The notes below the pieces were generated by a model. It was given only the letters and a program-made list of their open reading frames with translations. It was not told the origin of the DNA and did not search any database. This document shows positions 53,261 through 62,811 of a stretch of DNA of 64,000 nucleotides, one piece after another. How positions within the stretch are numbered: position 1 is the stretch's first letter; every line of letters begins with the position of its first letter. The position numbers and the translations under genes are program-made. Origin of the DNA: Sedimentibacter sp. MB31-C6 (GTDB taxonomy: Bacteria; Bacillota; Clostridia; Tissierellales; Sedimentibacteraceae); NCBI RefSeq assembly GCF_035934735.1, contig NZ_CP142396.1, positions 2,046,001 through 2,110,000 on the forward strand, in the 5' to 3' direction.

Positions 53261-53950
53261 ATGAGCAATACTATAAATATAATTAAAGACAACATTCTAT
53301 TTGATGGAATAAAAGAAGAAGAAATTGAGAAAATTTTATTATGCGGTAATGGTATTGTTAAAAAATTTGACAATAATCAAATTATATTTGAAAGACAAGA
53401 CATAATAAATAATATTGGTATAGTTTTGGAAGGCGAATTTAACTTAGTTACTCAAAAATATAACGGAACAAGGGTTATTATTACTACATTAGAATTGAAT
53501 GATTTGTTTGGAGAAGCACTAATCTTTTCTTCAACCAAAGAAGCACCTTACGATCTTGTTAGCTCAGGTGAAAGTAAAGCACTTTTTTTACCTTATTCGA
53601 TATTTACAGGCATGTGTTCTGAGGTATGTAATTTTCATAGAAAATTAATTAGTAATATGTTGTCTATTTTATCTGATAAAATTATTATGTTAAATAATAA
53701 AATGACTATACTTAATGCTGAAACATTAAAAGAAAGAATTGCAATTTATTTAATATCAATTTATAAAAAAACAAAAAAGCTAACATTTGATATACCTATG
53801 AAAAGACAAGAACTTGCAGAATTTTTGAACGTTACTAGACCTTCTTTGTCTCGTGAAATATCAAAAATGCAAAAAGATAAAATTATTGAAATAAATCGTT
53901 CAAAGGTTATAATTATAAGTTTAGAAAAATTATATGAATTAGCAGAATAA
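53261..53950 (+). CDS. Crp/Fnr family transcriptional regulator
   Basis: 229 residues. An N-terminal cyclic-nucleotide-binding beta barrel (IIFERQDIINNIGIVLEGEF; LFGEALIFSS) leads through a long dimer helix to the helix-turn-helix MKRQELAEFLNVTRPSLSRE. There is no Fnr-type N-terminal cysteine set, and two cysteines (GMCSEVC) lie at the end of the barrel. The ligand is unknown; clostridial members often sense haem, oxygen or a metabolite. Monocistronic. Its targets are not evident from the flanks. Confidence 0.88.
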   Translation: MSNTINIIKDNILFDGIKEEEIEKILLCGNGIVKKFDNNQIIFERQDIINNIGIVLEGEFNLVTQKYNGTRVIITTLELNDLFGEALIFSSTKEAPYDLVSSGESKALFLPYSIFTGMCSEVCNFHRKLISNMLSILSDKIIMLNNKMTILNAETLKERIAIYLISIYKKTKKLTFDIPMKRQELAEFLNVTRPSLSREISKMQKDKIIEINRSKVIIISLEKLYELAE

Positions 53951-54269: not shown

Positions 54270-55361
54270 ATGAAATTTAAATTTATACATACATCAGATA
54301 TACATTTAGGAATGAAGTTTAATATAAAAGAATTCAGTATAAAGGAACGCAAAAAACGAAGAGAAGAACTATGGGATACTTTTGAAGAAATCATTAGAAT
54401 TGCAAAGGATGAAGACGTGCAATATTTGTTTATTGTTGGTGATTTGACTGAAAGTGAATATATCAGCTTTAAATTATTAAATAAAATTGCGAAAATATTT
54501 GAATCCATAAAAAATACTAATATAATTATATCATGTGGCCGTAGTGATGCCTACAATATTAATAGTATGTATGAATATGTGGAATGGCCTGAAAATGTTT
54601 ATATAATAAAAAGTACAAATTCAGTTCAAAAATTAATGTTTCCTGAGGATAACGTATGTCTTTATTCTTTAAGTTGGGACAAAGCTTCAAAAAATCATAA
54701 TTCTCAGCTAATTTATGACATTTCTGTTGAGCAAAATAAATTAAATATTCTATTACTAAGTTGTGATACTTATATGGAAGATGAAATGCTTTCTATTAAT
54801 GCAGATTTGATTAAAAATAAATTTGATTATTGTGCTTTAGGTGGAAAACATAACTATGAAAAAGTACAAAATAATGTTATATACTGTGGAACTCCTGAAC
54901 CATTGTCTTTTGAGGAAGTTAAAGAACATGGTATTGTTAAGGGAATTCTCGAAAAAAATAATATATTTTTTGACTTTCATCCTATAGCAAAAAGAAGGTT
55001 TATTATTAGAGAAATTGAGTTAGATTCTACTTTTGGATATAATAAAACCCTCGATTTAATAAAGTTCTCTGGAGACACATTTTCTAATATAAAGGATTAC
55101 ATAAAGATAATTTTAACAGGATTTGTAAATACGGAAATATCCATGGATGAAATAGAAAATGAAGCGAAACAATTCTTTTACTATATTGAATTTGATGAAA
55201 AATTTACATACAAAAGTACAGAAGAAAAAAAATATGTAGATAATGAATTTAATATAGTTGAGAGTTATAAACTTCAATTTGAAAATTTACAGAATAAATT
55301 AGAGCAAAAAGCACTTAAGTTAGGATTTGAAGTTCTAAGAAAAGAAAAGGTGGTTAAATAG
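54270..55361 (+). CDS. SbcD/YhaO-like metallophosphoesterase with degenerate active site
   Basis: A 363-residue protein of the Mre11/SbcD/YhaO type, from the opening FIHTSDIHLGMKF (D10, H12) and VGDLTESEY (D58). The other metal motifs are altered. GNHD is GRSD (residues 90-93), the HG motif is replaced by LLLSCDT, and GHxH is GGKH (191-194). The SbcD-like NVIYCGTPEPLSFEE block that follows is intact. It is thus probably not an active manganese nuclease, although the fold and partner-binding parts may be kept. It lies 1 bp before the SbcC-like gene, so the pair is co-translated. The RBS is GGGGATG-type and weak. Confidence 0.82.
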   Translation: MKFKFIHTSDIHLGMKFNIKEFSIKERKKRREELWDTFEEIIRIAKDEDVQYLFIVGDLTESEYISFKLLNKIAKIFESIKNTNIIISCGRSDAYNINSMYEYVEWPENVYIIKSTNSVQKLMFPEDNVCLYSLSWDKASKNHNSQLIYDISVEQNKLNILLLSCDTYMEDEMLSINADLIKNKFDYCALGGKHNYEKVQNNVIYCGTPEPLSFEEVKEHGIVKGILEKNNIFFDFHPIAKRRFIIREIELDSTFGYNKTLDLIKFSGDTFSNIKDYIKIILTGFVNTEISMDEIENEAKQFFYYIEFDEKFTYKSTEEKKYVDNEFNIVESYKLQFENLQNKLEQKALKLGFEVLRKEKVVK

Positions 55362-55362
55362 C

Positions 55363-58062
55363 ATGTATATAAATAAATTACATCTTAGAGCCTTTGGGAA
55401 ATTCATTTACAAAAGAATGTACTTAGGAAAAAACTTCAATATTATATACGGAGAAAATGAAGCTGGAAAAAGTACAATACATAATTTTATAGAGGCTGTA
55501 TTGTATGGTTTTGATGAAGATGAGAAGGGTAAAGCCTTGTTTAATAAATATAAGCCATGGAATAGCAATCTCTATAAGGGCTCTATGAGTATATGGGATA
55601 TTTATGGCAAAAAATACAATATAGCTAAGGACTTTATATTAGGTAATGCTCAAGTATTCAATAAAGAGATTGATGAAAATAAAAATCCTATCATAAAAGA
55701 AATAAATATTGAAGCTCCAGGGGAATATTTTTTTAATATTAACAAGTCTTCTTTTAAAAATACTGTTAGCATTAAACAGTTAGGAAATAAAACAGATAAA
55801 GAATTATCTAGAGAACTTAAAGAAAAAATTGTTAATTTAAGTAATACAAGAGATGAATCAGTATCAATGGATAGAATTTTAGCTTCATTAAGAAATATAA
55901 AAGAAGAAGTCGGAAGTGAAGATAACCCAAAATCATTATTAGGTCAATATACTCTACGTTTAAAGGAATTAGAAAAAGCTAAAGAACTCACCTTAAATTC
56001 AAAAGGGCAAGTAATGTTTTTGGCAATGGAAAAGAAAAGATTAAATAACAAAGTACAAGAACTAAATATAAGAATAGAAAATCTCAATAAAGAAATACAA
56101 GATTATGAATTATCAGTTAAAAAGGATAAATTTCTTAAGACTGAACCAATAAAAAAGGAACTTGATGAAATAAACGAAAAGCTGCTAGAATATAAGCATT
56201 ACGAAATTCCGAAATTTTCTAAAGAAGATTATGAAGAAGCTTTAAAACTAGATAAAATATTAAATTCAATGGAAAAGGATAGACAAGCTTTAAGAAATAA
56301 AAAGGATGAAGAAGAAAAGGAACTTGAAAACTTAGAAAATAATTTATCAAATAAAATTAAAGAAAATTTTAATTTAGAGAAATTTAATGTTGATTTTAAA
56401 TCTTATGAAATTAATAACAAAAATATTAAAGATATGAAATCTAAAATTAAATTAGGATACGACAGTATAAAAGATATTAATTTAAAAGAAATTAATGAAT
56501 TTATAAATAGATATAATGATGCAGAAGAAATTAATGCAAAAATACAGATTATTAAAACTTTAATTGATGATAATTCATATGAAAATATGAAGGGTTTCAG
56601 AAAATCAGAAAATTTGAAGGGCTTTCTTTTAGGACTTCTAGGTTTAGCATTTGTTGGTTGTGCAGGTTTTTCTGCATATATGGCTTATTATAACCAAATT
56701 ATAGAGTATTATGGAGGAGCTGCAATAGCTATACCTGGTATTTTATGCTTCTTTTCATCTACAAAGAAAAGAAAACGCGCTTTGAATGCGACTAAAGAAA
56801 TTGATGGTATGGAATGTGAGCATGCTGATAATTTATTAAATAAAGACAATTTATTGAAAGAAATGGATGAAATTATAAAAGAATCTGGCTGTACAGATTT
56901 TGATGACTTAAAAAGTAATTTTGATAAGAAATATAACAAAAAAAATATCGCAGAAGAAAAATTAAGGCTTTTAAAATTTGATGAAGATGGTGTTAAAAAA
57001 ATAGAAATAGCTAATATAGAATTAAATAATAATATAAAGGAAACTTTAAAAATATTTAATTTAAATGAAGTTTCATCAGAAAATATAAAAAAGGTCAATG
57101 AAATATACAATAATAAAGATACAGTTAAAGAAGATATAATAAATATAAAAAAAGTAATTGCACAAACAAAAAGTGACTTAAATAAATTAGATAAAGAAAT
57201 TTCTTTTGAAGAGAAAAGACTCCATATGATTTTAAGTTCAAATGGTATGGATACGTTAGAATGCTTTAATAAAGTTGTAGAACAATATAAAATTTATGAG
57301 AATTTAAATAAGAGGAAGAAATATTGCGAAAGTATTCTTCAAAATTTCCTTGGAAATGAAAATTTTAATGACCTTAAAGAAAAGACAAAAAATGTTGCTT
57401 TATATGAAGTAAAAGAATTGGATAAAAAGGAACATCAGCTAAAGATATTTAAATTAAATGATGAAAAGAACATTATATTAGATAAAATTAATAATATTGA
57501 CAAAGAAATAGATGACATTGAAAACAATGTAAGAAGTTTAGCAGAGGTAGAAGAAGAAATTGAATTTTATGAAGATAAAAAAAGTTCATATATAGAAAAG
57601 ATAAAAATTGCAGATATTGCAGCTGAAAAAATAAATAAAATTTCTGATTCTATTAAAGGTGATTTCATGCCTTTGTTAAGAAAGTCTATAAGTGATAATT
57701 TTAGTTATTTAACTGGAGGAAAATATCGAGAAGTTATAATAGATGAAGAAATGAATATTTCAGTTATAGCAGAAGATAATAAGGACAGATATATTGATAT
57801 TGACAGCTTAAGTGGAGGAACACTAGATCAACTTTATTTATCTCTTAGAATTGGATTGAGTAATGTTTTAAGTGGGAATCAAAATATTCCTTTAATTCTT
57901 GATGATAGTTTTGTTCAATATGATTCAAAAAGACTAAAAAAGTCAATTGAAATGTTGTCGAGAGAAAGTCAAAGAAGACAAGTTATTCTTTTTACTTGTC
58001 AAGAAAGAGAAGTTGAGTATGCTAAAGAGTTGAATGTAAAGTTCAATTATATAAAACTTTAA
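55363..58062 (+). CDS. SbcC/YhaN-like ATPase with mid-protein membrane segment
   Basis: An 899-residue SMC-like protein. Walker A is YGENEAGKSTIHNF at residues 29-42. Long coiled coils follow. Around residues 419-462 are two hydrophobic helices (GFLLGLLGLAFVGCAGFSAY and AAIAIPGILCFFSS). More coiled coil follows, then signature LSGGTLDQLYLSLRIG and Walker B IPLILDDSFVQYD. YhaN-type proteins share this layout, which would tether the coiled-coil apex to the membrane. Partner of the upstream SbcD-like protein; role in DNA end processing inferred from family. Confidence 0.87.
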   Translation: MYINKLHLRAFGKFIYKRMYLGKNFNIIYGENEAGKSTIHNFIEAVLYGFDEDEKGKALFNKYKPWNSNLYKGSMSIWDIYGKKYNIAKDFILGNAQVFNKEIDENKNPIIKEINIEAPGEYFFNINKSSFKNTVSIKQLGNKTDKELSRELKEKIVNLSNTRDESVSMDRILASLRNIKEEVGSEDNPKSLLGQYTLRLKELEKAKELTLNSKGQVMFLAMEKKRLNNKVQELNIRIENLNKEIQDYELSVKKDKFLKTEPIKKELDEINEKLLEYKHYEIPKFSKEDYEEALKLDKILNSMEKDRQALRNKKDEEEKELENLENNLSNKIKENFNLEKFNVDFKSYEINNKNIKDMKSKIKLGYDSIKDINLKEINEFINRYNDAEEINAKIQIIKTLIDDNSYENMKGFRKSENLKGFLLGLLGLAFVGCAGFSAYMAYYNQIIEYYGGAAIAIPGILCFFSSTKKRKRALNATKEIDGMECEHADNLLNKDNLLKEMDEIIKESGCTDFDDLKSNFDKKYNKKNIAEEKLRLLKFDEDGVKKIEIANIELNNNIKETLKIFNLNEVSSENIKKVNEIYNNKDTVKEDIINIKKVIAQTKSDLNKLDKEISFEEKRLHMILSSNGMDTLECFNKVVEQYKIYENLNKRKKYCESILQNFLGNENFNDLKEKTKNVALYEVKELDKKEHQLKIFKLNDEKNIILDKINNIDKEIDDIENNVRSLAEVEEEIEFYEDKKSSYIEKIKIADIAAEKINKISDSIKGDFMPLLRKSISDNFSYLTGGKYREVIIDEEMNISVIAEDNKDRYIDIDSLSGGTLDQLYLSLRIGLSNVLSGNQNIPLILDDSFVQYDSKRLKKSIEMLSRESQRRQVILFTCQEREVEYAKELNVKFNYIKL

Positions 58063-58074
58063 AGGATTAGTTGT

Positions 58075-58764
58075 ATGAACATATATGCTATAGCAGATTT
58101 ACATTTTGATAGTAGAAATGAAAAACCCATGAACATATTTGGTGACAATTGGATAAACCATGAAGAGAGAATATTGTCAAATTGGCAGTCAACAGTATGC
58201 GATGATGATTTAATTTTAGTACCAGGTGATATTTCTTGGGCTGTTAAATTAGATGAAGCAAAAGAAGATTTATATAAAATAGATAACCTTAAGGGAACAA
58301 AAATTATTGGTAAAGGCAATCATGACTATTGGTGGGGAACGTCAAACAAGTTAGAAAATATAGGTTTAAAAACTATTAAATTTTTAAAAAATAATAGTTA
58401 TGAATTTGATGAAGCTATAATATGTGGAACTAGGGGATGGGATACTATGGAAGAACATACAACTGATGTATCCAATGAAAAAATATATTTAAGAGAATTA
58501 AACCGACTTAGAATATCCCTTGAAGGTTCAAAAAATAGTGATAAAAATATAATTGTCATGCTTCACTATCCACCCTTTGAAAATGATGGAAGCGCTAATA
58601 GATTTTTTTCTCTTTTAAAAGAGTATAAAGTTAATACTTGTATCTATGGACACCTTCATGGTGAAGAAGGGCATAAAAATGTTAGAGAAGGAAAAATAGA
58701 TGATATTTTGTTTTATTGCGTTTCGAGCGATTATTTAAATTTTGAACTTAAAAAAATTATTTAA
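58075..58764 (+). CDS. Metallophosphoesterase, intact active site
   Basis: A 229-residue calcineurin-like phosphoesterase. All metal motifs are present: IADLHFD, VPGDISW, GKGNHDYWWG, MLHYPPF and YGHLHGEE. This is the short single-domain type (YkuE/MPPE-like) whose substrate is not known. It begins 12 bp after the SbcC-like gene, so it belongs to the same operon. It could supply the phosphoesterase activity missing from the degenerate SbcD-like protein, though it lacks the SbcD capping domain. Confidence 0.88.
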   Translation: MNIYAIADLHFDSRNEKPMNIFGDNWINHEERILSNWQSTVCDDDLILVPGDISWAVKLDEAKEDLYKIDNLKGTKIIGKGNHDYWWGTSNKLENIGLKTIKFLKNNSYEFDEAIICGTRGWDTMEEHTTDVSNEKIYLRELNRLRISLEGSKNSDKNIIVMLHYPPFENDGSANRFFSLLKEYKVNTCIYGHLHGEEGHKNVREGKIDDILFYCVSSDYLNFELKKII

Positions 58765-58803: not shown

Positions 58804-60720
58804 TTGTATAAAATAGCAGTTATTTATTCGGCATATCCAGAAATGAAAGAAATAGCAAAAGAGTTTAATAAAATCAAAGATTATCACATAAAAGTTGAGG
58901 AAGTGGTGCTTGATGAAGCTGTAGAAGTAGCAAAAAATTATGAAGCACAAAATTATGATATAATTATAAGTAGAGGAATAACAGGTGCATTAATAAGAAA
59001 AGCTATTAATATACCAGTTATCAATATAGAAGTAACCACCACAGATTTATTGATTACTTTATTAAAAGCTAAACAATATAGTAAAAATATTTTTGTACTA
59101 TTATACGATGATATAATAATATCATATGATTTTTCATTTATTAGAGAATTATTAGATTTATCAGAAGATGAGTTAACGATATATGAATATAAAACGGAAG
59201 ATGAACTAAAAAGAAGAATATCTCATATTAATAATGATCATATAGATTGTGTAATAGTTGGAATTGGGGCTTATACCATAGATATAGCAAGAAGTTATAA
59301 TATGAAGTCATTAATGGTATATTCTAATAGAGAAACAATTTACAAAGCTTTTGAGCAAGCTGCTAGCATAATAGATATAACAAAGAAGCATATTCAAGTT
59401 AGCAATATGACAAACTCCTTTGCTAAGGAGTTGAAAAACGGGATTGTATTTACAGACATAGAAGAAAACATAATATTTATAACAGATATTCTATGTTCGT
59501 TTGTTGGTATAAATAAAGGTATGTATATAGGTAGAAGTTTAAGTTTTTTAACTGAAAGTACTGAATTTTTTAATGAACTATCTTTAGGTAAGAATAACTA
59601 TACAGCAGAATATAATAGAAAGACATTTAATGTTGCTAAAATTCAGTTATCTATTGATAAAGATATAATAGGTTATGCTATTACGGTTAAGCAAGTTGAT
59701 AAGGAAATAAGAAAAAATACACAGTCAAAAGAAATAGAATATAAAAATGAAGGATTAGGGTTAAAGGCTAAGTATAATTTTGAAGATATAATAGGACAAT
59801 CAAATCCTATAATTAAATTAATTGAACGAGCAAAGAGTTACAGTAAGTCAGATGCAAACATACTAATTGTTGGCGAAAGTGGTACTGGAAAAGAGCTTTT
59901 AGCAAGTAGTATACACAATTATAGCAATAGATCTAACGGACCTTTTGTAGCAATAAATTGTGCTGCATTACCTCAAAGTCTACTTGAAAGTGAATTGTTT
60001 GGTTATGAAGAAGGTTCATTTACAGGTGCAAAAAAGGGTGGTAAAGTAGGAATTTTTGAATTGGCTGAAAATGGTACGGTATTTCTTGATGAAGTATCAG
60101 AAATATCATTATCAGCACAAGCGCAGTTACTTCGTGTGTTACAAGAAAAGACGATTATGCGTATTGGTGCGAATAAAATGATTCCTATAAATGCTAGAAT
60201 AATAGCTGCTACTAATGCTGACTTACAAAAGCGTATAAAATCAGGCACTTTTAGAGAAGACTTGTTTCATAGGCTGAATGTATTAAATTTAAAAATACCA
60301 CCATTAAGAGAAAGAAAAGATGATATAATATTATTAATTAATAGGTTTCTGGAATTATATTCATATAAAGAAAAATTAGATCTTCCGCATGTTTTTGTGC
60401 AGAAACTAAAAAATTATAGATGGCATGGGAATATAAGAGAATTACAAAATTTTGTTGAGAAATTTGTAATTCTGTCTAATGATTTTCCAGATAAATTTAA
60501 ACTTTTAGAAGAATTATATCATGATTTAATTAGTTACGAAAGATATGAAGATAACAATATCAATTCAATAGATATTAAAATATCTAATTTAAAAGATATG
60601 GAAATGCAAATCATTAAAAAGTTATATAATGAAACTGATAATAAAATTAATTTAGCAAGAAAATTAGGAATTAGCAGGACGAGTTTGTGGAATAAACTGA
60701 AGGAAATGGAATTAGAATAG
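58804..60720 (+). CDS. Sigma-54-dependent activator with PrpR-type sensor
   Basis: 638 residues. The N-terminal PrpR_N domain spans ~1-195 (DIIISRGITGALIRKAINIPVINIEV as a landmark). A PAS-like domain spans ~205-310. The AAA+ domain runs ~325-560 with Walker A VGESGTGKELLA (near 357) and the sigma-54 contact loop as GSFTGA (near 403) instead of GAFTGA. DEVSEISLSAQAQLLRVLQ is the Walker B region. A Fis-type helix-turn-helix ends the protein (INLARKLGISRTSLWNKL). Start TTG, eight bases after AAGGAGG. A sigma-54 promoter and long inverted repeat lie just downstream, so it likely activates the next operon. Confidence 0.92.
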   Translation: MYKIAVIYSAYPEMKEIAKEFNKIKDYHIKVEEVVLDEAVEVAKNYEAQNYDIIISRGITGALIRKAINIPVINIEVTTTDLLITLLKAKQYSKNIFVLLYDDIIISYDFSFIRELLDLSEDELTIYEYKTEDELKRRISHINNDHIDCVIVGIGAYTIDIARSYNMKSLMVYSNRETIYKAFEQAASIIDITKKHIQVSNMTNSFAKELKNGIVFTDIEENIIFITDILCSFVGINKGMYIGRSLSFLTESTEFFNELSLGKNNYTAEYNRKTFNVAKIQLSIDKDIIGYAITVKQVDKEIRKNTQSKEIEYKNEGLGLKAKYNFEDIIGQSNPIIKLIERAKSYSKSDANILIVGESGTGKELLASSIHNYSNRSNGPFVAINCAALPQSLLESELFGYEEGSFTGAKKGGKVGIFELAENGTVFLDEVSEISLSAQAQLLRVLQEKTIMRIGANKMIPINARIIAATNADLQKRIKSGTFREDLFHRLNVLNLKIPPLRERKDDIILLINRFLELYSYKEKLDLPHVFVQKLKNYRWHGNIRELQNFVEKFVILSNDFPDKFKLLEELYHDLISYERYEDNNINSIDIKISNLKDMEMQIIKKLYNETDNKINLARKLGISRTSLWNKLKEMELE

Positions 60721-60788
60721 TTAAAATAATGAACGTATAAAGTAAAAATTTTGAACAAAATAAAATAATTATTATTTAAATTACTATT

Positions 60789-60830
60789 AACATATATTTT
60801 ATTGTTATAAATTACAATAAAATATATGTT
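60789..60830. promoter_or_regulatory. Long perfect inverted repeat, candidate activator site
   Basis: 17-bp perfect arms (60789-60805 and 60814-60830) around an 8-bp AT spacer, centred about 41 bp upstream of the -24 element. With no T-tract it is a better candidate for an enhancer/UAS of the PrpR-type activator than for a terminator, though a hairpin at the regulator's 3' end cannot be excluded. Confidence 0.6.
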
Positions 60831-60848
60831 ATATGTAAATATAGTTTT

Positions 60849-60865
60849 TTGGCATGCTATTTGCG
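60849..60865 (+). promoter_or_regulatory. Sigma-54 (-24/-12) promoter
   Basis: TTGGCATGCTATTTGCG has GG at 60851-60852 and GC at 60863-60864, exactly 10 bases between them, matching TTGGCAC-N5-TTGC. It reads into yqeB, about 60 nt before its ATG. Confidence 0.85.
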
Positions 60866-60937
60866 TGTTCTTTTTTAACAATCGCTATACTTTTGAATGA
60901 ATAACGATAATTGGCAAATGAGGAGTATAAATAAGCT

Positions 60938-61750
60938 ATGATAAAAAATAAAATAATAGTTGTCAGAGGAGCAGGAGATATTGCTACAGGAAGCATTCAA
61001 AAATTAGTTAGAGCGGGGTTTCCTGTAATAGCAACTGAGATTGCATATCCTTCTGCAATTCGTCGATACGTTTCTCTTTGTGAAGCCGTCTATGAGGATA
61101 CCTGGACAGTAGAAGATATTACTTCAATCTTTGTAAAATCTATAACGGAGGCAGTGGTGGCAATAAAGTCTTCTAAAGTACCAATAATAATTGATCCATC
61201 TTGTAATATTATAAAAGAATTACAGCCTTTTGCAGTTGTTGATGCAACATTGGCTAAGAAAAATCTTGGGATGACTAAAGATTTGGCTCCAATTACAATA
61301 GCACTAGGCCCAGGGTTTATAGCAGGTAAGGATGTAGATATAGTAGTTGAGACTATGAGAGGTCATAACTTAGGAAGACTTATTATGGAAGGTACTTCTA
61401 TTTCAAACACCGGCATACCAGGTATTATTGCAGGCTATGGTGCTGAGAGAGTAATTCATGCACCTTATAAAGGGATAATTCATAATGAAAAAACTATTGG
61501 TGAAAATGTAAAAAAAGGTGAAATAATTGCTACTATAAATGGAAAGCCAGTACTTGCCACTATAGATGGAATTCTACGGGGATTAATACGTGATGGATTT
61601 AATGTATCGAAGGGATTTAAGATAGCAGATATTGATCCGCGAATATCAGAAAAAGAAAATTGTTTCACTATTACTGATAAAGCACGTTGTATTGGTGGTG
61701 CAGTATTAGAAGCGATACTTCAACAAAGTCATAAAATGGGGAGAAATTAG
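60938..61750 (+). CDS. yqeB: YqeB-family Se-dependent Mo-hydroxylase maturation protein
   Basis: A 270-residue protein of the YqeB/EF2563 family (TIGR03309 type), linked by co-occurrence to selenium-dependent molybdenum hydroxylases such as xanthine dehydrogenase. The Rossmann-like start is VVRGAGDIATGSIQKLVRAG. SEAVYEDTW-like CEAVYEDTWTVED, DATLAKKNLG, ALGPGFIAGKDVDIVVET and the late cysteine/glycine segment KARCIGGAVLEAIL are typical. Its exact chemistry is not established. First gene after the sigma-54 promoter; xdhC follows after 29 bp. Confidence 0.88.
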   Translation: MIKNKIIVVRGAGDIATGSIQKLVRAGFPVIATEIAYPSAIRRYVSLCEAVYEDTWTVEDITSIFVKSITEAVVAIKSSKVPIIIDPSCNIIKELQPFAVVDATLAKKNLGMTKDLAPITIALGPGFIAGKDVDIVVETMRGHNLGRLIMEGTSISNTGIPGIIAGYGAERVIHAPYKGIIHNEKTIGENVKKGEIIATINGKPVLATIDGILRGLIRDGFNVSKGFKIADIDPRISEKENCFTITDKARCIGGAVLEAILQQSHKMGRN

Positions 61751-61779
61751 GTTGTGAGCATTTATCAAAAGGAGACGAT

Positions 61780-62811
61780 ATGAAATTTTATAAAGTTTTA
61801 CAAAACATAGATATGGATAAAGAAAATATAGTAATTATTATCATAACAGGGAAAAATATTGGGTCTAAACTCATACTTTCAGATAATGAAATTATATATA
61901 CAAACAATGAAAAGGTTGATTGGAACAAATACATAGATTATATTACTAATATAAAAGAAAGAAAAAAAGATAATGTAATTACAATAGGAGATGAAAAAAT
62001 ATATTTTGAATATTTGAGGGCAGCTAATAAAGTAGTTGTTTGTGGAGCTGGACATATATCGATTCCAATAATTAAGATGTGTAAACTTCTTGATTTACAT
62101 ACAACTGTTATTGATGATAGACCTAAATTTGCAAACAATGCAATTATAGCCAAAGCCGATAAAGTGATTTGTGAGCCTTTTGCAGATGCATTGGATAAAA
62201 TCAAAGGTGATAGCAGTACATTTTTTATAATAGTAACAAGAGGTCATCGTTATGATAAAAGTTGTTTACAAAGTATTGTTAATAAAGAAAATGCATATAT
62301 AGGAATGATTGGTAGTAAAGTACGAGTAGCAAAAGTATTAAATTCTTTAGAAGAAGAAGGAATAGAAAGAGAAAAATTAAATAAAGTATACACTCCAATA
62401 GGATTAAAGATAGGAGCAGAAACACCAGCTGAAATTTCTGTTGCAATAATGGCTCAAATCATTGATGTTAAGAACAAGGAATTGAAATCAAGTAATTACA
62501 GCGATGAAATTATAAATAATATACTGGATATTAAGTATAAAAATATACCTAAGGCAATGGTGACTATCGTTTCTAGAAGGGGTTCTGCACCTAGAGAAGT
62601 AGGAACAAAGATGGTTGTGCTAAAAGATGGTACTATGTTCGGTACTATTGGAGGTGGATGTGCTGAATCTAATTTAAGACAAAAAGCCTTTTCGTGTATA
62701 GAGAATAATAAATGTCAGTTAGTTAAAGTAGACATGACTGGAAGAGAAAGTGAAGAAGAAGGTATGATATGTGGAGGAATAATAGAGGTTTTTATTGAAC
62801 CAATCAAATAA
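61780..62811 (+). CDS. xdhC: XdhC/CoxI family Mo-cofactor accessory protein
   Basis: 343 residues. A Rossmann XdhC_C-type domain comes first (VVVCGAGHISIPIIKM near residue 86; VTRGHRYDKSCLQ; AYIGMIGSKVRV), then an XdhC_CoxI domain (TIVSRRGSAPREVGTKMVV; GTIGGGCAESNLRQ; MICGGIIEVF) at residues ~255-343. That is the reverse of the order in classical XdhC. Family members bind molybdenum cofactor and insert the sulfido ligand into hydroxylases. The RBS AAAGGAG precedes ATG 61780. Confidence 0.88.
   Translation: MKFYKVLQNIDMDKENIVIIIITGKNIGSKLILSDNEIIYTNNEKVDWNKYIDYITNIKERKKDNVITIGDEKIYFEYLRAANKVVVCGAGHISIPIIKMCKLLDLHTTVIDDRPKFANNAIIAKADKVICEPFADALDKIKGDSSTFFIIVTRGHRYDKSCLQSIVNKENAYIGMIGSKVRVAKVLNSLEEEGIEREKLNKVYTPIGLKIGAETPAEISVAIMAQIIDVKNKELKSSNYSDEIINNILDIKYKNIPKAMVTIVSRRGSAPREVGTKMVVLKDGTMFGTIGGGCAESNLRQKAFSCIENNKCQLVKVDMTGRESEEEGMICGGIIEVFIEPIK

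Follow-up and report, generated by a model that had tools for sequence, protein, structure and literature searches.

A putative nuclease-dead SbcD/Mre11-like subunit linked to an intact SbcC/Rad50-like ATPase in Sedimentibacter

Introduction

Mre11-Rad50 is among the most widespread DNA-break complexes, and the share of cutting against clamping or tethering in its work is an old question. In known complexes of this type, of which that of Thermotoga is 3tho, the ATPase is held by helices at the C-terminus of the nuclease subunit. An ATPase without a CxxC zinc hook is typical of the SbcEF (YhaO/YhaN) kind, in which we take YhaO to be equivalent to SbcE. In the Mre11 of P. furiosus, metal 1 is held by D8, H10, D49 and H208, and metal 2 by D49, N84, H173 and H206.

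Published accounts of this enzyme state that seven residues bind two Mn (PMC7407228), that H173, H206 and H208 are involved in the site (PMC3175470) and that H85 is the proton donor (PMC4996933). Its H85S mutant is reported to have neither exo- nor endonuclease activity (PMC8007570). The H84Q form of E. coli SbcCD is described as nuclease-deficient with its ATPase down only about 15% (PMC6265447); because about 85% of the ATPase is kept, the nuclease and ATPase functions are separate. The SbcEF pair is presented as poorly characterised and implicated in double-strand-break repair (PMC6452273).

A gene pair with the predicted fold of these complexes

The window, which is the whole stretch of Sedimentibacter DNA that was analysed (64,000 nucleotides), contains a gene whose product resembles the nuclease subunit of these complexes:

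54270..55361, + strand: SbcD/Mre11-like putative pseudo-nuclease (363-aa ORF, PF00149 match, predicted Mre11 fold)
54891..54917, + strand: TPEPLSFEE block (residues 208-216), downstream of motif V, kept in translation and alignment
54975..55358, + strand: residues 236-363, capping domain with C-terminal helices; the better-conserved half within Sedimentibacter

The 54270 protein, to which the YhaO label presumably applies, passes the Pfam Metallophos model PF00149 narrowly, with 22.6 bits against a cut-off of 21.5, and lies under the curated cut-off of the SbcD model TIGR00619 (45.5 vs 77.65 bits). By profile search it is matched by P. furiosus Mre11 (1ii7) with an E value of 5.4e-24, the motifs being aligned. 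The structure model built from an 81-row alignment has a mean pLDDT of 91, and its nuclease and capping domains form the Mre11/SbcD fold. Its top structural match is 3tho_B, the Thermotoga Mre11 with Rad50 (Z 25.5, rmsd 3.3, 283 residues, model range 3-311), and P. furiosus Mre11 and its H85S mutant also match (Z 24.6). An earlier note, made from the letters of this DNA, had described the reading frame, the TPEPLSFEE block and a tightly coupled ATPase as intact, and this holds: the frame is open over 363 aa, the block is present, and a single base separates the stop of the 54270-55361 gene from the ATPase ORF (start 55363), which has its own motifs in place.

Residue-by-residue loss of the active site

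The positions that make up the two-metal site were read from the translation and from an alignment of 64 intact orthologs, nine other rows of f1 and f3 and seven remoter SbcD-type rows:

54297..54305, + strand: motif I, D10-I-H12, metal 1, kept (25/25 Sedimentibacter rows, 64/64 intact rows)
54441..54443, + strand: motif II, D58 of GDL, kept (25/25 Sedimentibacter rows)
54537..54548, + strand: G90-R91-S92-D93 where GNHD is expected; both the metal-2 Asn and the catalytic His gone (N91 0/25, H92 0/25)
54759..54764, + strand: S164-C165 where HG is expected; metal-2 His gone in the 54270 protein (H164 present in 12/25 genus rows)
54840..54851, + strand: G191-G192-K193-H194 in place of GHxH; metal-2 His gone, metal-1 His kept (H192 0/25, H194 25/25)

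The full Mre11/SbcD set, seven metal ligands plus the catalytic His of GNHD, is incomplete in the 54270 protein, in which the ligands N91, H164 and H192 and the catalytic H92 are lost and D10, H12, D58, D93 and H194 are kept. Each lost motif falls in its expected alignment column, which bears out the earlier claim that at least four metal or catalytic positions are missing; the survival of D10, H12 and D58 and the changes of GNHD to GRSD (90-93) and GHxH to GGKH (191-194) were likewise confirmed. Two of its statements need narrowing. The HG motif is indeed gone from this protein, but only its His matters, because the Gly is A, T, C or S in 9 of the 64 intact orthologs, and that His is still present in nearly half of the genus rows. 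The term broken metal site also lacks precision, since one metal has all its ligands invariant across Sedimentibacter and the other has lost its ligands or is losing them. From the kept and lost ligands it therefore follows that the metal-1 site is whole and that the metal-2 site and the catalytic His are dismantled, and two-metal nuclease activity has very probably been lost in the 54270 protein.

It could be argued that the nuclease still works with substituted ligands and that the losses merely change its specificity. The retention of H164 in part of the genus would fit this, and D93 together with the Q, K, S or R found at position 91 could bind phosphate or a weak metal. However, the ligand H192 and the catalytic H92 are lost in all 25 rows, and the H85S change inactivates the P. 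furiosus enzyme (PMC8007570), so we regard a still-working nuclease as quite improbable.

A second alternative is a one-metal enzyme, or a metal or redox sensor, in which D10, H12, D58 and H194 hold one metal and C89, C130, C165 and C188 tune it. Because each of the four metal-1 ligands is kept throughout Sedimentibacter, a one-metal or altered activity is possible, and entry 4fbk, judging by its title, is a Mre11 crystal structure that has a single Mn in each active site. Each of these cysteines is frequent or fixed in Sedimentibacter and nearly absent from intact orthologs, with frequencies in 24 Sedimentibacter rows and 64 intact orthologs of 0.96 and 0.05 (C89), 0.92 and 0.03 (C130), 0.79 and 0.03 (C165) and 1.00 and 0.00 (C188). 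Strict anaerobes may, however, tolerate buried Cys, which counts against a sensor. Position 92 is Ser in the 54270 protein and in 19/25 Sedimentibacter rows, and no new acid or base residue is fixed there. Moreover, the f31 rows L244 and L245, from a similar lineage treated below, have lost D10 and H194, so that a kept metal 1 is no rule for such proteins. This alternative thus appears unlikely, and a protein that has lost two-metal cutting remains the preferred reading. As a separate observation, three among the four cysteines adjoin active-site motifs in sequence.

Conservation of the losses in Sedimentibacter and relatives

The 54270-type gene was matched in 25/25 Sedimentibacter genomes, with no inner stop in the matched stretch (two matches being partial). 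The losses are conserved: all 25 rows are without N91, H92 and H192 and all 25 keep D10, H12, D58, D93 and H194; these counts include L015, whose last 120 residues are those of another row and which was left out of alignments, trees and rates. Duplicate loci (L001/window, copies L036-L058) were left out. By comparison, the 64 orthologs of the order sampled outside f1 and f3 are intact at all nine positions checked, and N91 and H92 are both present in 64/64 of them. The genus-wide loss of N91, H92 and H192 (25/25 vs 0/64) is far beyond chance.

Intermediate states occur in living relatives. Among the nine rows from other f1 genera and family f3, H92 is lost in 8 and N91 in 1, and H164 and H192 are kept in all 9; judged by these motifs, family f3 appears to represent an earlier stage of active-site loss. 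The f1 and f3 rows form one clade, with an SH-aLRT of 100 in a quick 104-row tree and values of 100/99 in a careful tree of 48 rows selected from those available. The simplest order of events within this clade would be that H92 went first, metal-2 ligands mostly later and metal-1 ligands never. GNHD is retained in a single member of the clade, G026, and H92 was therefore lost repeatedly, or regained.

Selection and shifted constraint

The dN/dS ratio (Nei-Gojobori) is 0.062-0.099 in six close Sedimentibacter pairs against 0.078-0.157 in four intact pairs; several pairs have a dS close to 1 or higher, which makes their ratios rough, and the pair L005/L025 is absent from the full-length values. 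The stepwise loss seen when f3, the remaining f1 genera and Sedimentibacter are compared is what would be seen in ordinary decay, with a gene on its way out that is kept by chance or by operon polarity. Against this stand the open frames in all 25 genomes, the dN/dS values, no higher than in intact pairs, and a highly conserved C-terminal half. Decay was therefore rejected, and we consider it hardly credible.

Constraint in Sedimentibacter has instead shifted along the protein. Mean pairwise identity is 0.741 over residues 236-363 and 0.666 over residues 1-235 (23 rows, without L015 and L026, the latter ending at a contig end), and 0.755 against 0.659 in a second alignment of 22 rows, from which L025, whose frame runs on in different letters past residue 325, was also removed. 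The order is reversed in three intact groups, with capping and nuclease identities of 0.552 and 0.603, 0.552 and 0.665, and 0.581 and 0.626, and family f3 is neutral (0.502 and 0.494). At a matched nuclease identity of 0.60-0.70, capping minus nuclease identity is +0.098 in Sedimentibacter (0.028 to 0.177, 142 pairs) and -0.091 in intact orthologs (-0.199 to 0.036, 60 pairs); the pairs in these comparisons are non-independent, and the two sets hardly overlap. From L351 to V362, most residues are invariant across the 22 Sedimentibacter rows.

The ATPase partner and the gene neighbourhood

The second gene of the pair encodes an SbcC/Rad50-like protein:

55363..58062, + strand: 899-aa SbcC/Rad50-like ATPase partner without zinc hook (PF13514, AAA_27, 45.1 bits vs cut-off 22)
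55450..55476, + strand: Walker A, GENEAGKST (motif reading)
56620..56754, + strand: predicted hydrophobic, membrane-like mid-chain hairpin (19-residue hydropathy peaks 1.93 and 1.63)
57805..57831, + strand: ABC signature, SLSGGTLDQ (motif reading)
57892..57924, + strand: Walker B, LILDDSFVQYD (motif reading)

A Q-loop is also present. The hairpin is placed where the coiled-coil apex is expected, the position of the zinc hook in SbcC. A CxxC hook is missing from all 85 aligned partner ORFs longer than 560 aa (the distant paralog L093 is one of them), and in 82 a hydrophobic stretch above 1.6 occurs at least once, near mid-chain in nearly all. The identity of the ATPase head is 0.689 in Sedimentibacter, compared with 0.639-0.700 in three intact groups. 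A PADLOC scan gave partial matches only, for example LmuB to the ATPase (E 4.3e-9). In four MAG loci (L036, L039, L040 and L056), the ATPase gene lies in two overlapping frames, probably through assembly or sequencing errors.

A gene for a CRP-type regulator lies upstream of the pair (53261-53950) and is found likewise in 19/20 Sedimentibacter loci of at least 5 kb, L041 being the one where it was not found. Downstream, within 58804-62811, there is a gene for a PrpR-type sigma-54 activator, and two genes of the same interval resemble what we take to be the YqeB/XdhC molybdenum-hydroxylase maturation pair.

The genome to which the window belongs (3.02 Mb) also carries an ordinary intact SbcCD, the SbcC of which has a CPVC hook; a search of this genome with the 54270 protein gave one further, distant nuclease-like match, which is the SbcD. 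An ordinary SbcD above the TIGR00619 cut-off occurs in 16/25 Sedimentibacter genomes, this one included. None was detected above that cut-off in the other 9, three of which are more than 90% complete, nor in the f31 genomes G391 and G257, so that an ordinary SbcD is not a universal backup.

Proposed role of the pseudo-nuclease

Losses of this kind, together with strong conservation of the protein and its ATPase partner, indicate that the subunit is probably a structural part and not a cutter. The earlier note had suggested a structural pseudo-nuclease regulating the ATPase. The pseudo-nuclease half of that suggestion is upheld by the genus-wide loss, the purifying selection, the fold, the ATPase motifs and the shift of constraint; regulation is a matter of inference, and a structural or gating role as an ATPase-coupled pseudo-nuclease is likely.

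The subunit, a nuclease-dead Mre11/SbcD-type protein of the SbcEF or YhaO/YhaN kind, would belong to an ATP-driven clamp. Its predicted fold still comprises nuclease and capping domains; dimerisation would be retained, and the ATPase would be held by the capping domain together with the C-terminal helices (residues 329-335 and 343-358). Deprived of metal 2 and of the proton-donating His, it would no longer cut DNA. Its task may instead be to position the ATPase and control its gating, probably while bound to DNA, and what is left of the metal site (metal 1) may play a structural part or bind phosphate. Natural lineages that have the complex without the nuclease, with intermediates in living relatives, would allow the roles to be separated without engineered mutants. 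Annotation pipelines are expected to name such proteins exonucleases, probably wrongly.

The adjoining phosphoesterase

The third gene of the cluster had been put forward as a possible replacement catalyst:

58075..58764, + strand: intact calcineurin-like phosphoesterase, old third cluster gene in the order (PF00149 46.7 bits, synteny, motifs)

Its position, 12 bases past the ATPase stop, and its complete phosphoesterase motifs would suit a protein that took over the catalytic role. However, the gene follows the ATPase gene in 32/33 loci of the order outside Sedimentibacter, the one miss being at a contig end, and in 28 of these loci the nuclease is intact; in Sedimentibacter it follows the pair in 18/20 loci of at least 5 kb, both misses being at contig ends. 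It is also present in 19 of 20 genomes searched from the 34 without a detected nuclease-like gene, 17 of the 20 being from one genus (g28) in which a very diverged nuclease-like gene could escape detection. The protein is short (229 aa) and matched phosphoesterase domains only, and a PDB sequence search with it gave nothing at E 0.001. Its identity in Sedimentibacter, 0.701, lies inside the 0.652-0.725 range of the intact groups and so gives no sign of a changed role. It is single-copy in a search of its own genome.

In 12-kb stretches surrounding two f31 pseudo-nucleases, the phosphoesterase gene was not detected; this is weak evidence, because the gene was likewise not detected next to two intact pairs that come from beyond the order (L213 and L214). 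Its link with the pair does not extend past the order. The idea of a replacement catalyst was therefore dropped, and a takeover by this protein is very improbable; by its motifs and synteny, it appears to be an old neighbour and no substitute.

Other lineages with lost motifs

A phylum sample of 159 genomes was searched, and 70 loci were read, the 30 best and 40 picked lower down, some of them probably SbcD-type paralogs; two repeat known loci, and the GNHD His is absent in 6 of the 68 further ones. Two of these six, G382 and G320, have GESD and GESE and keep the remaining motifs. In family f31, G391 and G257 (L209:4729-8591 and L210:4645-8446) have GRSD and GKSD, no HG His, and GGAH and GGEK, and the relative L246 in G448 has GNSD and GGAH, so that the f31 losses appear close to the Sedimentibacter pattern (GxSD, GGxH). 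In the two f31 loci whose ATPase partner was read, those of G391 and G257, this partner is intact.

Family f25 goes further. A match was found in 28/45 of its genomes, and 25 loci (L217-L241) were read; further records of the gene pair are L211:4867-8470 and L212:5263-8839. D10, H12, N91, H92 and H194 are gone in 24/24 readable loci (L226 left out of the motif count and of the identity figures), and H164 and H192 often stay; the other metal site was therefore lost first or further there. In the partner, Walker A is gone in 25/25 loci, and the f25 pair thus probably has neither of the two classical activities. The signature and Walker B are gone as well in the two partners read whole. The one f25 partner measured has no hydrophobic stretch above 1.6. 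An ordinary SbcD is present in both f25 genomes checked. The frame that contains the nuclease-like protein in L226 (G417) is open for 1187 aa in the genome search and for 912 aa in the retrieved stretch; it continues from the pseudo-nuclease into the partner, minus the first residues of the latter, which suggests a fusion.

The reversal of constraint seen in Sedimentibacter was rejected as a general mark of dead nucleases, since the nuclease half is still the better conserved in f25 (0.646 vs 0.483) and f31 (0.661 vs 0.561). A single origin for f1/f3, f31 and f25 was rejected (p-AU 0.0029); f1/f3 and f31 as one clade are borderline (p-AU 0.051), and f31 with f25 is not rejected (p-AU 0.206), for groups that were set by motif and family before the test and after the 48-row tree was seen. 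At least two origins are therefore supported, and three are likely. Tentatively, and with some doubt, nuclease activity may have been repeatedly dispensable in SbcEF-type complexes, the Mre11-like subunit having become a pseudo-nuclease in separate Firmicute lineages and f25 keeping, in each of the 25 species read, a pair that probably lacks both classical activities; the conserved role may be structural, that is, holding DNA or membrane.

Comparison with known systems

No description of a nuclease-dead bacterial SbcD or YhaO was found in the literature searched, which left out most subscription papers. The Mimivirus R555 Mre11/Rad50 fusion is similar in that the His206 ligand is replaced in an Mre11-like protein; it differs in being a fusion protein in which His206 is changed to Asp and the third Asp of the motif to His, His173 and His208 being kept (PMC3175470). 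Inactive calcineurin-like phosphoesterase folds are also found in regulatory subunits of another kind, the B-subunits of eukaryotic replicative DNA polymerases, the archaeal counterpart of which, DP1, is described as active (PMC4996933). These subunits belong to another complex with another function.

The 54270 pair resembles SbcCD and Mre11-Rad50 in fold, domain order, partner ATPase and motif positions. It is unlike them in that the 54270 protein is without three of the seven metal ligands and the catalytic His and scores under the SbcD cut-off, and in that the 55363 partner has no CxxC zinc hook, whereas the SbcC of the same genome has CPVC. The pair is also like SbcEF/YhaO-YhaN of Firmicutes, in which, as at 54270 and 55363, a small Mre11-like gene adjoins a gene for a Rad50-like AAA_27 ATPase; the hookless partner is a further feature of that kind, and the loss of the nuclease site in the 54270 protein sets the pair apart. 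With catalytic residues lost throughout the lineage (25/25) and the gene under purifying selection, it is well supported that the 54270 protein is a pseudo-enzyme subunit in an Mre11-Rad50-type complex.
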